NCBI RefSeq assembly: GCF_013179285.1
Contig: NZ_WVNW01000002.1
Coordinates: 186,001-250,000, forward strand
DNA: 64,000 nt
Direction of reading: 5' to 3'
Source of the DNA: Roseobacter sp. HKCCD6576-2
GTDB lineage: Bacteria; Pseudomonadota; Alphaproteobacteria; Rhodobacterales; Rhodobacteraceae
The notes beneath the pieces are model-generated. The model was not told the origin of the DNA and made no database searches. It saw only the letters and a program-made list of their open reading frames with translations. Of the stretch, positions 30,465 to 50,166 are shown one piece after another (the first letter of the stretch is position 1; the number at the start of each line of letters is the position of its first letter). The position numbers and the translations under genes are program-made.

Positions 30465-30933
30465 AGCTCACGCTATCGGCCGCAGACTTCCTGGCGGCCC
30501 TTGCGGACATATCGCGACTGATTTGATCAGCAGTGACCCTCTTCCACTCTGCGAACTGCGGTTTGAATGTGCCAGACATGCACCCTACGAAGATCGCCAA
30601 GACAAATGTGACTGTATGGCAAAGTGGAGGGCGGAAATGGGAAGTTCGCTGCAATAGCAAAAGAGTCAGCGTGTCGAGCAAGAGGGAGCCGTTCGTCGCT
30701 GGTCGAACAAACGACTGCCCGGTGAACGAAATCGCCATGGTTCCTTGATGGGGCGCCGCGGAATTCGAGCCGGACTGCTTGATAGGATACCAACTAGAAA
30801 CCCGTTTTCGGGCAAGCCGCTGGTCACCGGTACTCGGGCTGGCGACGTCAATGCCTTACCGAACCATTCCACTATGCAGAAAACATGGCTACAAGAGCCT
30901 CCACTATAAGGGGCGATCGTTAGGAGTTTGCAA
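30465..30933. other. 469-base gap between lysis and glycan genes
   Basis: No convincing gene is seen. A 21-codon frame starting GTG at 30462 (MKLTLSAADFLAALADISRL) overlaps the Rz1 stop and ends at a TGA; it could be a remnant. Two frames of 71 and 73 codons at 30533 and 30779 have no binding sites and are not protein-like. This may be a junction left where the glycan cassette was inserted. Confidence 0.5.
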
Positions 30934-35546: not shown

Positions 35547-35816
35547 TGCGTGCGTTCTCTGTCTTATGGTGGGACGATCTAAGCTTATACCGTCCGTATT
35601 TGTTAATCGACCAACAGGCAAGATCGCCGATCCGTTTTCGGGCAAATCAGACGGCGACGGGTTTGCGTCACGGGCTGCACCTTGGCAACGCTTCGTTTTT
35701 GTGAACCGCTGTTTCGGTCGAGCATCATATAGCCCGTGAGCGCCCAACCAGAGCAGCTGCAGGTCTTCGAGATCAGGCCATTGACCTGAGCCGCCAGCGC
35801 CGCTTTCATCGCATCC

Positions 35817-36467
35817 ATGTGTGGACGTTTTGTTTTAGGCGAGTCCTCTTGGGCGGAATATCACGACGCGATGTCGATTATTCGGCCTGAGCCGGCGCGG
35901 GTCAGCTTCAATATCAAGCCAACCCAGTTTGTGCCGGTTGTCACCGGGCGGCCGGGCGCGTTGGCCTCTAGCGATGCGCGGTGGTGGTTTGTGCCTCATT
36001 GGCACAAGGGCGGCGTAAAAGACTGGAAGGCCACCACCTTCAACGCGCGGATCGAGAGCGCGGCGTCGAGCCCTACCTTTCGCGTCGCCTGGCGCTCGAA
36101 CCGCTGCCTGGTGCCCGCAACCGGCTACTACGAATGGACAGGCCAAAAGGGCAAGAAACAGCCACATCTGATCTATCTTGAGCGCAATGATCCGGTGTTC
36201 TTCTTTGCGGGGCTGCATTCGACGCTGTCCGATGGCACCGAGACCTGCACCATCGTGACGCGCGAGGCTGAGCCAGAGATTGCGCATATCCACAGCCGCA
36301 TGCCGGTTATCCTATCGGATGATGAACTGATGCCCTGGCTCACTTTTGAAGATTGCGATTGGGGCACAAGCTGGACCGGTCGCTTTCTGGTGCGGGATGT
36401 GCGGCCCTTTGGGCGTGACGATGATGGGCCTGAGTTGATCGAAGAGATCGACCCTGAATTGTTCTAG
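35817..36467 (+). CDS. SRAP (HMCES/YedK) DNA-damage protein
   Basis: A 216-residue SRAP protein. Cys2 follows the initiator Met (MCGRF), with Asn76 (FNARIE), Glu106 (YYEW) and His159 (HIHSRMPVIL), the four active-site residues. It forms a covalent link with abasic sites in single-stranded DNA and shields them. Its 3' end overlaps by four bases the end of a reverse-strand gene behind a LexA box. SRAP genes are common in phages and SOS-linked clusters. No clear binding site precedes the ATG. Confidence 0.92.
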   Translation: MCGRFVLGESSWAEYHDAMSIIRPEPARVSFNIKPTQFVPVVTGRPGALASSDARWWFVPHWHKGGVKDWKATTFNARIESAASSPTFRVAWRSNRCLVPATGYYEWTGQKGKKQPHLIYLERNDPVFFFAGLHSTLSDGTETCTIVTREAEPEIAHIHSRMPVILSDDELMPWLTFEDCDWGTSWTGRFLVRDVRPFGRDDDGPELIEEIDPELF

Positions 36468-36781
36468 CGTCCGAAACGCTTCTGCGGCGGGCGCCGTTTG
36501 TCGAGCGTCAACCCGCCATCCTTTTCGATCAGCACCGTGACGGACCCTTTCACCATGGCGAGCGCGGCTTCATTGGTCGGTGCATCACCCTGGCTGGCCG
36601 GATAGGCCCAGGTCATCCATTGCCAGCGACCGCTGTAATCTGACACGCGCTGATGTACCCGCCCGACATTGTGACCGTTACACCGCACAACCCGGTCGCC
36701 AGGCTCGGTTTTTCCGCCGATGAAGCAGGGCGCATGGGTGAATCGTAGAGGCGGTTTGATCGGTTGGAATCTGTCTAGCAT
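36464..36781 (-). CDS. LexA-box-controlled hypothetical protein
   Basis: A 105-residue basic protein with a Cys/Gly-rich middle (RVVRCNGHNVGRVHQ) and a beta-rich end. A perfect LexA box lies six bases before the ATG, and no Shine-Dalgarno is present, so the message may be leaderless from an SOS promoter. Its 3' end overlaps SRAP, a DNA-damage protein. A DNA-damage role is an inference from this context; the family is not recognised. Confidence 0.6.
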   Translation of the reverse strand: MLDRFQPIKPPLRFTHAPCFIGGKTEPGDRVVRCNGHNVGRVHQRVSDYSGRWQWMTWAYPASQGDAPTNEAALAMVKGSVTVLIEKDGGLTLDKRRPPQKRFGR

Positions 36782-36786
36782 GCCGT

Positions 36787-36801
36787 GAACAATGTGAGAA
36801 C
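36787..36801 (-). promoter_or_regulatory. LexA (SOS) box GTTC-N7-GTTC
   Basis: On the plus strand GAAC at 36787-36790 and GAAC at 36798-36801 are separated by exactly seven bases, the alphaproteobacterial LexA consensus read on the minus strand. It faces the 105-residue gene ending at 36781. Confidence 0.75.
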
Positions 36802-37031
36802 ATCGGATCTAGATCAAGACAGATCCATCGCAAATAAGATGTATTGCCGCGTCTGTGGGCGGCGACCATCAGAGATCAGGCGAGTCTATGATAATGGCCT
36901 CAGCGTGAAGAATGGAGCCGACAACCGCGCGCCCGACACGCCAGATGATTAGCGGATCGTTGCTTTACAATATCGAACAATGGGGCGAACTGTCGCCGAG
37001 AGATGCACTATCGCCATGCAAACAAGGGCGA

Positions 37032-37046
37032 TTAAGGTTTTCTTAA
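37032..37046 (+). promoter_or_regulatory. CtrA box TTAA-N7-TTAA (first)
   Basis: TTAA at 37032-37035 and TTAA at 37043-37046 are separated by seven bases (GGTTTTC), the exact consensus for the CtrA response regulator. It lies 64 bases before the ATG of the 62-residue gene. Confidence 0.75.
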
Positions 37047-37109
37047 CCTCAGGTTTCGATTGTCTCAACAATTGAAGCGGAAAAATCGAATCAACTTGAG
37101 GACGAGAGA

Positions 37110-37298
37110 ATGGAACTTACGAAAGGCGCGAAGCAGCCGTGGATTCCCGGCATAACTGCACTGAGAGACGAACAGATTGTTATCGAGGACTCCCTTGAGA
37201 AGGGCCTCGCGGCTGCCCGCATTGGGGGTCATGAGAATACTGCGATTGCATTTGAACGAGTTCTGAAGGAGCGACTTCTGCTTAGCCGTAGGACGTGA
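37110..37298 (+). CDS. small protein behind a CtrA box, 62 aa
   Basis: It starts MELTKGAKQPWIPGITALRD and is helical and charged after that (VIEDSLEKGLAAARIGGHENTAIAFERVL). GAGGACGAGAG lies before the ATG. No domain is recognised. Its upstream region carries an exact CtrA consensus, so it may be expressed with the host cell cycle. Confidence 0.55.
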   Translation: MELTKGAKQPWIPGITALRDEQIVIEDSLEKGLAAARIGGHENTAIAFERVLKERLLLSRRT

Positions 37299-37333
37299 CG
37301 TAATAGACCGACAACCAGCAATAAGAACCATTG

Positions 37334-37348
37334 TTAATAGGCTGTTAA
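37334..37348 (+). promoter_or_regulatory. CtrA box TTAA-N7-TTAA (second)
   Basis: TTAA at 37334-37337 and TTAA at 37345-37348 are seven bases apart (TAGGCTG), again exact. The box is 41 bases before the next ATG. As in the first box and the one before ctrA, the second half reads TTAACC. Confidence 0.75.
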
Positions 37349-37388
37349 CCAAATCATTGAAGTCTCACCCCCAGAATGACAGGGGCCG

Positions 37389-37724
37389 ATGATGACAGAA
37401 ATGATGACACCAGACGAGATCATAATAGACACTCTTTCCGACTTGGCGGACATTGAAGGCAGGGAGGGAGATTACAAAGCCGTTTGGGGGTTGGAAGCGG
37501 TTATCATGGCCTATTGCATGGACACCGGAATGGACGCAGACGATGTCCGCCAAAAGATACTTGAAAGACGGCGAAACCGAGTAGCAAAAGAACATGAAGC
37601 TCGTCTCTCAATAGATCAGAATAGCGAAGCCGAAAATTGCTGGAATGCGCCACGCGCCCTACTTGTAGTAGATAACGGAATCGCAACATCCAGAACTCCC
37701 AATGCCAATAGCTGCGACCACTAG
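37389..37724 (+). CDS. small acidic protein behind a CtrA box, 111 aa
   Basis: Tandem ATGs at 37389 and 37392 follow AGGGG. The N-terminal 60 residues are acidic and helical (TPDEIIIDTLSDLADIEGREGDYKAVWGLE), the C-terminal part is basic then polar. It is unrecognised. An exact CtrA box lies directly upstream. The 3' end is overlapped by a possible short reverse-strand frame (37659-37775). Confidence 0.55.
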   Translation: MMTEMMTPDEIIIDTLSDLADIEGREGDYKAVWGLEAVIMAYCMDTGMDADDVRQKILERRRNRVAKEHEARLSIDQNSEAENCWNAPRALLVVDNGIATSRTPNANSCDH

Positions 37725-37775
37725 ATTCAGAGGGTTGAGAGAGCGCTCAACCGCTTCTTTTAGCGTGTAAGTCAT
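37659..37775 (-). CDS. possible 38-aa membrane peptide at end of leftward operon
   Basis: Starting from an ATG at 37775 the frame gives MTYTLKEAVERSLNPLNLVV and a short hydrophobic end (AAIGIGSSGCC). It follows the 107-residue gene of the leftward operon by seven bases, but it overlaps the 3' end of a forward gene, so it is weakly supported. Confidence 0.3.
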   Translation of the reverse strand: MTYTLKEAVERSLNPLNLVVAAIGIGSSGCCDSVIYYK

Positions 37776-37782
37776 TGACAGT

Positions 37783-38106
37783 TTAGTCCTCATAAAGACT
37801 CTCCAAATCGTCAAAGATAGCGGCCTCAAATTCTTCACCCAAGCGCTCCTGTCGTTCACGTAATGAAGCGTGGATTGTGGTAAGACCGCCTTTTAACCGC
37901 GCAATCTCCGCGTCTTTGGCGGCGTTGTCAGCGGCGAGGGCTAAGCAATTCGCGCAGGGCGCGATCGGCTCGCACGGATCAACAAGATCGGGGAGTTGCC
38001 AGCACGGCGGATCGCCAAACTCTGCACATGCTGCGGCGCAAATGGCGAGCAGCCTATCGTCGAAACCGATTGGGTTGGGTGCCGCCCCTCCGTCTCTACT
38101 GGTCAT
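37783..38106 (-). CDS. hypothetical protein of leftward operon, 107 aa
   Basis: The ATG at 38106 overlaps the end of the methyltransferase gene by 11 bases. The N-terminal half is Cys/Pro-rich (FGDPPCWQLPDLVDPCEPIAPCANCLALAADNA) with possible metal-binding cysteines, and the C-terminal half is a coiled coil (KDAEIARLKGGLTTIHASLRERQERLGEEFEAAI). No family was recognised. Confidence 0.5.
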   Translation of the reverse strand: MTSRDGGAAPNPIGFDDRLLAICAAACAEFGDPPCWQLPDLVDPCEPIAPCANCLALAADNAAKDAEIARLKGGLTTIHASLRERQERLGEEFEAAIFDDLESLYED

Positions 38107-38839
38107 TGGGGGTTTCCGGGGTTGTAAGGGCAGAGGCAATGCACATTCCGATCACTTCGGCCATTTCTGGCGGATTGCTGTCGCCAAGCGCTTCAAGCCT
38201 GCTGCGTCTCAAAGCTGATTTGGATCGCTCCATTTCTCCGGCAGATCGAGCATCCACTCGTAAAGACCTGAGCTTACCCGGGTCCCAAGCACCTCGGGCA
38301 TTTGCTGCCCGCGCGACTGCTTCAATCGCTCGTGGTCCCTCGCGCCAGGCGACCTCCAATCGCGACAAGCTGGTGCAGGCCACCAAGTAGACTCTCCGGC
38401 GAATGTAAGGTGCGCCAAGATCGCAAGCGCCGAACTCAAGTCGGGCGACGTGGAAACCAGCTTTGGAAAGATCGTTACACACTTCGGCTTCCCACGCCGA
38501 ATGTCCCGGCGGCTGCTCCACGACAATCCATTCAGCTCCGGCGTTGATCCCAATTCGGAGCATTTCCGGCCAGAGACTGAAGCCTGTACGTTTGTTATGT
38601 ATTGCTGCGGCAACGCTCGTCTCCTTGCAGGGTGGACCTCCGAAAACAATATCGGCTGGTGGCGGAGAGAATTCTTCGACCGTGCTATGCAGGGCGATGT
38701 TCGGCAATCGCCGCGCCAGAACAGAGCGGCGGAACTCATCTTTCTCGACCATAGCGACGGTCGACGACAAACCGGCCCGGTGAAAGCCAAGCGCATGACA
38801 TCCGATGCACGAAAAAAGATCGATAACCCTTTCTTTCAT
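38096..38839 (-). CDS. C5 cytosine DNA methyltransferase, short variant
   Basis: A 247-residue enzyme. Motif I is VIDLFSCIGCHALGFHRAG (residues 5-23), motif IV is GGPPC with catalytic Cys71, motif VI is VVEQP with Glu108 where most enzymes have ENV, and motif VIII is GAPYIRRRVYLVA. The space for a target-recognition domain is very small, well below the usual 320 or more residues. No partner nuclease lies nearby, so it is an orphan phage methyltransferase that probably guards phage DNA or alters host expression. GAAAG lies before the ATG. Confidence 0.85.
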   Translation of the reverse strand: MKERVIDLFSCIGCHALGFHRAGLSSTVAMVEKDEFRRSVLARRLPNIALHSTVEEFSPPPADIVFGGPPCKETSVAAAIHNKRTGFSLWPEMLRIGINAGAEWIVVEQPPGHSAWEAEVCNDLSKAGFHVARLEFGACDLGAPYIRRRVYLVACTSLSRLEVAWREGPRAIEAVARAANARGAWDPGKLRSLRVDARSAGEMERSKSALRRSRLEALGDSNPPEMAEVIGMCIASALTTPETPNDQ

Positions 38840-46333: not shown

Positions 46334-46410
46334 GCGGTTGTAGCTCAGTTGGTTAGAGTACCGGCCTGTCACGCCGGGGGTCGCGGGTTCGAGCCCCGTC
46401 AACCGCGCCA
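46334..46410 (+). tRNA. tRNA-Asp (GTC), first copy
   Basis: A complete 77-base cloverleaf: acceptor GCGGTTG pairs with CAACCGC, D-arm AGCTCAGTTGGTTAGAGT, anticodon loop CTGTCAC with GTC at 46368-46370, T-arm GCGGG-TTCGAGC-CCCGT and encoded GCCA end. Confidence 0.97.
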
Positions 46411-46444
46411 CCACCATCGCTCTTGCATCCTGTTTCGCGTCTGC

Positions 46445-46521
46445 GCGGTTGTAGCTCAGTTGGTTAGAGTACCGGCCTGTCACGCCGGGGGTCGCGGGTT
46501 CGAGCCCCGTCAACCGCGCCA
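46445..46521 (+). tRNA. tRNA-Asp (GTC), second copy
   Basis: Identical in all 77 bases to the copy 34 bases upstream, with encoded CCA. Tandem tRNA-Asp copies fit a simple duplication that raises dosage; both are probably on one transcript. Confidence 0.97.
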
Positions 46522-49386: not shown

Positions 49387-49401
49387 GTAACTTGTAATTA
49401 A
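49387..49401 (+). promoter_or_regulatory. probable CtrA autoregulatory site
   Basis: GTAA at 49387-49390 and TTAA at 49398-49401 are seven bases apart, one base off the CtrA consensus, and the second half extends to TTAACCAT. The site is 51 bases before the ctrA ATG; CtrA controls its own gene in other alphaproteobacteria. Confidence 0.6.
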
Positions 49402-49452
49402 CCATTTCACCTCAGGGTAGCGTCAACGCCGGATAAGAATCGGAGAGAATTG

Positions 49453-50166
49453 ATGCGCGTCCTGTTGGTCGAAGACGATCCCACCACTTCGAAAAGCATC
49501 GAGATGATGTTGAGCCATGCCGATCTGAACGTGTATTCGACACCTCTTGGCGAAGAAGGGATCGATCTCGCAAAGCTTTATGATTACGATTTAATTCTTC
49601 TTGATCTAAACTTGCCTGATATGACTGGCCATGAAGTCCTGCGGCAGTTGCGTCTCGCGCGGATCGAGACGCCGATACTGATCCTCTCGGGTGCAGACGA
49701 TACCGAAAACAAGCTGAAGGGGTTCGGGTTCGGTGCGGATGACTACCTGACCAAGCCGTTCCACCGTGAAGAGCTTGTCGCGCGAATCCACGCGATCATT
49801 CGCCGGTCGAAAGGCCATGCGCAGTCGGTGATCAAAACAGGATCAATCGCGGTGAATCTCGACGCGAAAACCGTTGATGTCGAAGGCCGCGCCGTTCATC
49901 TGACTGGCAAGGAATATCAGATGCTGGAGTTGTTGAGTCTCCGCAAAGGCACGACGCTGACCAAAGAGATGTTCTTGAACCATCTCTATGGCGGCATGGA
50001 TGAACCCGAGTTGAAAATCATCGATGTCTTCATCTGCAAGCTGCGCAAGAAGCTCAGTCAGGCGACAGGTGGCGACAATCATATCGAGACGGTTTGGGGC
50101 AGGGGATATGTCTTGCGCGATCCGCAGCCCGCGCTCAACACAGAGCACATCGCCGCGAGCGCCTGA
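49453..50166 (+). CDS. ctrA: cell cycle response regulator CtrA
   Basis: A 237-residue OmpR-type regulator. The receiver has Asp8-Asp9 (EDDP), phospho-acceptor Asp51 (LLDLNLPD) and Lys near 101 (TKPFH). The C-terminal winged helix contains [17 protein letters not shown] and [11 protein letters not shown]...WGRGYVLRD, as in CtrA. The protein ends AASA, a small-residue tail like that read by ClpXP in Caulobacter. CtrA controls division, motility and gene transfer agent genes in the group. The ATG at 49453 is used, not the TTG at 49450. Confidence 0.96.

Follow-up and report, generated by a model that had tools for sequence, protein, structure and literature searches.

A mobile gene cassette with predicted CtrA boxes, carried as prophage cargo in a Rhodophyticola strain

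The window analyzed in this study, which is the whole 64-kb stretch of DNA, contains two exact TTAA-N7-TTAA boxes, each of which precedes a small gene within a prophage. In our judgment, the boxes are likely to be CtrA-binding sites that drive or tune the two genes, A and B, of a mobile cassette that travels as prophage cargo in a Rhodophyticola strain (Rhodobacterales, Roseobacteraceae). Control by the host CtrA is the best reading because the boxes are conserved, occur well beyond chance expectation and share their motif with sites before cckA and other host genes. The boxes are real and selected, as the conservation described below shows, and probably CtrA-controlled.

The boxes and the copies of the cassette

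Both boxes lie on the plus strand, box1 (TTAAGGTTTTCTTAA) at 37032-37046 and box2 (TTAATAGGCTGTTAA) at 37334-37348, and both present the TTAA-N7-TTAA dyad without mismatch. An earlier note on this DNA had placed two exact boxes here, and they proved to be the sole two in 64 kb; dinucleotide shuffles gave an expectation of 0.12, and two sites were reached in 1 of 100 shuffles of the window. The reading TTAACC at the right half of both boxes, which the note had also claimed, was borne out by the sequence. Box1 is separated by 63 bases from the start codon of gene A (37110-37298, plus strand, 62 aa), and box2 by 40 bases from that of gene B (37389-37724, plus strand, 111 aa).

A DNA search of the host genome, G000, with positions 36950-37800 returned two more copies at 69-72% identity, located on contig C12 (C12:1064107-1064752, hereafter C12b) and on contig C6 (C6:1651-2418). 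Each of the three units has the order box1, gene A, box2 and gene B with both genes present and the boxes 302 or 303 bp apart. Because every unit has both boxes, 6 of the 26 exact sites in this 4.41-Mb genome lie inside the three units. The proteins of the C12b and C6 copies are 55-64% identical to A and B of the window, and the two small genes named by the earlier note, starting at 37110 and 37389, are real by this conservation at two other loci. Pairwise dN was 0.17-0.33 against a dS of 1.28-2.49 (Nei-Gojobori), which indicated that proteins A and B are under purifying selection; the resulting dN/dS of 0.10-0.21 is rough, with dS near saturation.

Synonymous sites are thus near saturation between the copies (dS 1.3-2.5), yet both boxes are intact in all three. 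In the three-way alignment, only 14 of 62 third codon positions in A and 29 of 106 in B were invariant. By comparison, all 15 columns of box1 were invariant, and the longest invariant run of the 786 columns examined (37030-37047) spans this box, while box2 kept 8 of 8 TTAA positions and 3 of 7 spacer positions. Given that 55% of all columns were invariant, the naive chance that all 16 half-site positions were kept is 8e-5, a rough guide that treats columns as independent.

Moreover, a protein profile of gene B, built without box information, matched 2 of 101 genomes, the own genome included, both of them Rhodophyticola. The one relative outside the own genome lies in G004, the genome of Rhodophyticola porphyridii, which is listed in the same genus as G000. 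This locus encodes a diverged gene A (28% identity, with an uncertain start codon) and a diverged gene B (37%), and both genes are preceded by exact boxes, TTAACGCGCCGTTAA and TTAAGACTGAATTAA, at 1157 and 1442 of locus L030, whose spacers differ from those of the window. Given the 28 exact sites in the 3.8 Mb of G004, exact boxes would fall within 100 bp of both starts by chance with a probability of about 5e-7. The earlier note had named disappearance of the boxes from close relatives as a refuting outcome; instead, they persisted in all four divergent A-B copies found (three in G000, one in G004) and in one more copy, of 97.8% identity, in the conspecific genome G470. The boxes lie just upstream of genes and are kept there by selection, being conserved in three copies and in G004.

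Host CtrA, its motif and the reading of the boxes

The host possesses CtrA, encoded at 49450-50166 of the window on the plus strand (NCBIfam equivalog NF045991, 423 bits, cut-off 350), and a one-mismatch CtrA-type site, GTAACTTGTAATTAA, lies upstream of this gene at 49387-49401 on the same strand. The motif also occurs at a known CtrA target, cckA. The cckA box, TTAAGACNNGTTTAA, was found once each in six of the seven genomes of the genus, and the distance from the box to the aligned cckA start was 43 bp (as a coordinate difference) in G000, G470, G004, G003 and G001. In G002, the box stands beside a partial cckA match (49% over 112 aa, close to the end of a contig), and the seventh genome, G005 (2.6 Mb with two exact sites in all), is without it. 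The name cckA is given on the basis of the best NCBIfam matches, which were CckA models at scores below their cut-off, with part of the ORF scanned. In Dinoroseobacter shibae, CtrA sites have been predicted in silico before ctrA and cckA (PMC6473078).

Outside the three units, 20 exact sites remain in the host genome, with one overlapping pair counted as two. Eleven of these precede an ORF start by 7-76 bp (coordinate difference), or 12 if a doubtful 79-aa ORF is accepted, and the genes behind them include cckA, a CHASE-PAS histidine kinase, an MshEN-domain glycosyltransferase, rpoH, SRAP and a LuxR-type regulator. By sequence, 13 of the 20 recur in G470, one with a changed spacer (read by eye). 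The other 8 or 9 sites do not lie close upstream of any ORF start and may be chance matches, so the motif alone is no proof of a CtrA site. Judged by its placement, TTAA-N7-TTAA behaves as the predicted CtrA box of this host.

Several of these chromosomal sites were observed in their own right. Two overlapping exact boxes with one common TTAA precede a Big_12-domain gene (L018, G000 C1:1333528-1333553), and both also occur in G470. An exact box lies 43 bp before a gene for an rpoH-type sigma factor (L065, G000 C62:69551), with the identical box sequence in G470. Another is located 31 bp upstream of a chromosomal SRAP gene (L060, G000 C23:307418), and SRAP-like genes are also neighbors of the cassette both in the window (35817) and in C12b; these elements may be connected with CtrA and SOS.

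The region before gene A contains a candidate promoter at 37043-37072 on the plus strand, in which TTAACC (37043-37048) is followed after 18 bp by AACAAT (37067-37072), and the promoter activity is a prediction from sequence. The earlier note had seen no clear -10 after either box. For box2, this still holds, and no -10 candidate was seen downstream of it in the window sequence; for box1, it does not, as AACAAT is invariant in the three copies and forms part of an invariant run of nine, AACAATTGA, at 37067-37075. A GAATC at 37088-37092 (plus strand) is also invariant in the three copies. It is an instance of GANTC, which we take to be the CcrM methylation motif. The window has far fewer GANTC sites than its base composition predicts (96 against 236), and the ctrA promoter contains a GAATC at 49437, 13 bp 5' of the ctrA start codon. 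The gene A promoter region therefore resembles that of ctrA, with box, GAATC and start codon similarly arranged in both. In the G004 copy, there was no GANTC near gene A in the stretch examined, and no clear -10 was seen. The second longest invariant run, at 36964-36973 (plus strand) upstream of box1, may be a second protein site. Together with a further block at 37086-37094, it suggests that a second protein binds around box1.

On the basis of these features, it is proposed that phosphorylated host CtrA would bind box1 over the -35 region and turn on gene A from the arrangement TTAACC, 18 bp, AACAAT. CtrA at box2, within the gap between A and B, would activate or tune gene B separately, and a third gene, C, which is present in fuller copies of the cassette, may respond through its own near-box. 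If CtrA acts at its boxes as proposed, the cassette would be expressed when the CckA-ChpT-CtrA relay is active, a condition that in roseobacters would go with quorum-sensing, motility and gene-transfer-agent states. CtrA binding, the sign of regulation and the promoter positions are the inferred parts of this explanation. Points against it include that the box of gene C has one mismatch, that gene C of the window is a remnant and that the ctrA site of the window is itself a one-mismatch site.

The sign of regulation could be the reverse, with CtrA repressing the cassette for as long as CtrA activity is high, as has been proposed for lytic deferment phages. In the work on other alphaproteobacterial phages, lytic deferment is described as a temporary repression mandated by CtrA (PMC9437464), and box2 has no visible -10 at activator spacing. 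However, the layout at box1, where AACAAT follows 18 bp downstream, is activator-like, and in the host ctrA promoter box, GAATC and start codon succeed one another in a similar way. Repression by CtrA is regarded as possible but not probable.

Another regulator, encoded by the phage or by the cassette itself (for example A, B or C), might use operators that resemble CtrA boxes. Consistent with this, the spacer of box1 is fully invariant in the three copies, box1 is a perfect dyad (TTAAG-N5-CTTAA), and invariant blocks flank it at 36964-36973, 37067-37075 and 37086-37094. The conservation of the box1 spacer goes beyond what the CtrA half-sites need and hints at a further constraint. In box2, however, the spacer varies, and in G004 it is wholly different, while the TTAA halves stay exact. 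Moreover, the identical motif precedes the host cckA, and the A, B and C proteins scanned matched no DNA-binding family. A separate regulator is an unlikely explanation. Functionless chance matches in AT-richer prophage DNA are very improbable: the GC content at 37-38 kb is 50%, AT-rich relative to the rest of the window, and a single shuffle in 100 yielded two sites, but a chance origin is rejected because the boxes are conserved in four divergent copies of two species.

Genes A, B and C and their distribution

Control by the host CtrA, which remains the preferred reading, concerns three gene families whose products matched little in the databases. None of the A, B and C proteins scanned matched anything at E 0.001 in Pfam, NCBIfam, PADLOC or PHROGs. 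Gene A gave no Pfam, PADLOC or NCBIfam match even at E 1, and its best PHROGs match was at E 0.22. The best weak family matches of gene B were Pfam DUF790 (E 0.095), a PHROGs family of unannotated function (E 0.0014) and PADLOC DpdE (E 0.008); the C6 copy of B matched an NCBIfam RNase III model weakly (E 0.036), and the best weak Pfam match of gene C was PF03981 (E 0.08). The predicted structure of B consists of three helices (8-26, 35-46 and 50-79) with a low-confidence tail (mean pLDDT 71). Foldseek found no match for this fold at E <= 0.001 in PDB or BFVD, and the best sequence match of B in PDB had an E of 1.7. The predicted fold of C was left unused (pLDDT 43).

Three assignments of the products were considered. 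A comparison of A with B gave no support for their being paralogues. As for a toxin-antitoxin pair, neither A nor B had a Pfam or NCBIfam match at E 0.001, which speaks against known families only. The middle of B resembles two RNase III helices (per-genome E 8e-4 to 0.05). An RNase III-like function for B was not supported: the RNase III signature (NERLEFLGD or similar) is missing, and the D of GDALEA is not kept; the likeness may therefore be chance or a relic. The likeliest role of A, B and C would be that of helical proteins with a regulatory or adaptor function, of use to the carrier element or to its host when the relay is active.

Gene C or its remains lie divergently upstream of A in C12b and C6, and the order C-A-B is collinear in G004. 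In the window, a 3' remnant was identified at 30520-30633 on the minus strand (tblastn against C12b gene C, E 1e-8, 55% over 38 aa; profile E 2e-6). A further copy of gene C was found by profile search on contig C5 of G000, where the search of the genome for A and B gave no match. One-mismatch boxes precede gene C in C12b (CTAAATTTCTGTTAA), C5 (CTAAATATCAGTTAA) and G004 (TTAACCAAAGCTTAG); the C6 copy of the gene is damaged, and its box is more degraded than these.

Within what was searched, the gene families A, B and C appear to be confined to this genus. Of 390 genomes of the order, the profile of C matched two, both of them Rhodophyticola and one of them the own genome, and over the contigs of 84,980 genomes its sole match was NZ_RCNT01000002.1 of Rhodophyticola porphyridii. 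A three-copy profile of B returned nothing over the same 84,980 genomes. Such contig scans miss relatives, since the R. porphyridii contig holds a diverged B that the B scan missed. Among viral contigs, A and B matched the record of the window itself, and C had no match. C was absent from phage and from plasmid records, B was absent from plasmids, and phage records gave no DNA match to window positions 35800-38300. A wider search with gene B at E 0.05 among 394 genomes of the family, a draw without G004, found the own genome and 30 others; the ORFs under 10 of these 30 matches were all RNase III-like by sequence and were counted as non-homologues.

Mobile contexts and comparison with known CtrA-linked elements

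The element in the window is a prophage, in which genes for terminase, portal and tail tape-measure proteins were identified. Upstream of the prophage there is an integrase gene (L071 3172-4314, minus strand), and an IMG/VR virus record of 48,104 bases contains both boxes. Within the prophage, the cassette is adjoined by an SRAP (SOS response-associated peptidase) gene, identified by family match, at 35817-36467 (plus strand). A cytosine-5 DNA methyltransferase gene at 38096-38839 (minus strand) also adjoins it, and two tandem tRNA-Asp (gtc) genes were noted elsewhere in the window at 46334-46521.

The other copies lie in different surroundings. C12b is part of a 5.56-kb stretch that recurs in G470 at 97.8% identity between other flanking sequences; when G470 was searched with 11 kb around C12b, the match was confined to this stretch. 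A tyrosine integrase gene lies near either end of the segment, which holds two neighboring ORFs, the downstream one matching SRAP and the upstream one matching no Pfam family at E 0.001, and no direct repeats of 12 bp were found near its ends in the stretches compared. Pieces of a transposase of the IS4/5 kind lie directly 3' of gene B in the C6 copy, and in G004 a transposase gene (L034 5435-6826) lies about 1.5 kb before box1. What the window copy has in common with the other copies by blastn is limited to about 0.7-0.8 kb. These contexts (a prophage, a segment bounded by integrase genes whose placement differs between two strains, and sites beside transposase genes) indicate that the unit is mobile cargo.

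A search with the portal gene yielded 22 virus loci, that of the window included. Exact boxes were absent from six related phage records, six of the 21 other portal relatives, which are partial or of uncertain completeness. The boxes were accordingly rejected as a trait of the phage lineage: among the seven virus records compared, exact sites occurred only in the record of the window. The earlier note had suggested that the prophage listens to the host cell cycle. This view was not upheld for the prophage itself, as the boxes are part of a small cassette that occurs outside this prophage too and the six related records are without them. Moreover, the phrase cell cycle is a Caulobacter reading, because the CtrA targets predicted in D. 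shibae are quorum-sensing, flagellar, competence, pilus and GTA genes, along with lexA and dgc2, in the available text of that study (PMC6473078). The cckA site predicted there recurs in the present host, but the D. shibae sites given in that text belong to host genes and not to a mobile cassette.

CtrA sites in phages have been described previously. Mascolo et al. (2022) reported them in Caulobacter phiCbK-like phages, in Brevundimonas phage Delta and in other 'LPEG' phages, and according to the abstract, CtrA binding and regulation were demonstrated; the work puts forward lytic deferment as a hypothesis (PMC9437464). That phages contain sites for a host regulator is therefore a known principle, since such sites in alphaproteobacterial phages have been published with binding data (PMC9437464, as its abstract states). 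As in those phages, exact TTAA-N7-TTAA sites stand here at promoter positions before uncharacterized genes, one of which encodes 68 aa in the published case (PMC9437464). In contrast, the available text of that paper describes dense site clusters, mostly in terminal repeats or gap regions, whereas the present sites are two exact, predicted ones tied to a cassette. The high local density typical of LPEG phages was not found: the 48,104-base record has two exact sites with 287 bases between them, one per cassette gene, in a count restricted to exact sites where PMC9437464 used score-based sites. In Rhodobacter capsulatus, the phage Jorvik has one putative CtrA site, and a ctrA deletion strain resisted infection (PMC10589892, available text). 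Jorvik and the present element share a Rhodobacterales host, presence as prophages and a putative CtrA site; in the same text, unlike the present element, Jorvik is a membrane-containing phage whose site lies between structural and packaging operons near a repressor gene and not before cargo genes.

In the literature searched (titles and the beginnings of abstracts, with few subscription journals), no description was found of a CtrA-boxed cassette common to a prophage and other mobile segments, and the traveling cassette and its gene families look new. It is conceivable, though rather doubtful as a whole, that a cassette with its own CtrA promoters and three undescribed gene families moves between prophages and integrase-bounded segments and plugs into the CckA-ChpT-CtrA relay, so that its expression would be timed to a DNA-exchange state, that is, to the making of GTA and the uptake of DNA. 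In mobile contexts of different kinds, the sites accompany small cargo genes, and they have survived divergence close to saturation at the synonymous sites of these genes. With three diverged natural copies in a single genome and a distant fourth in a sister species, the cassette may offer a clean test case of how mobile DNA stays wired to a master regulator of its host.
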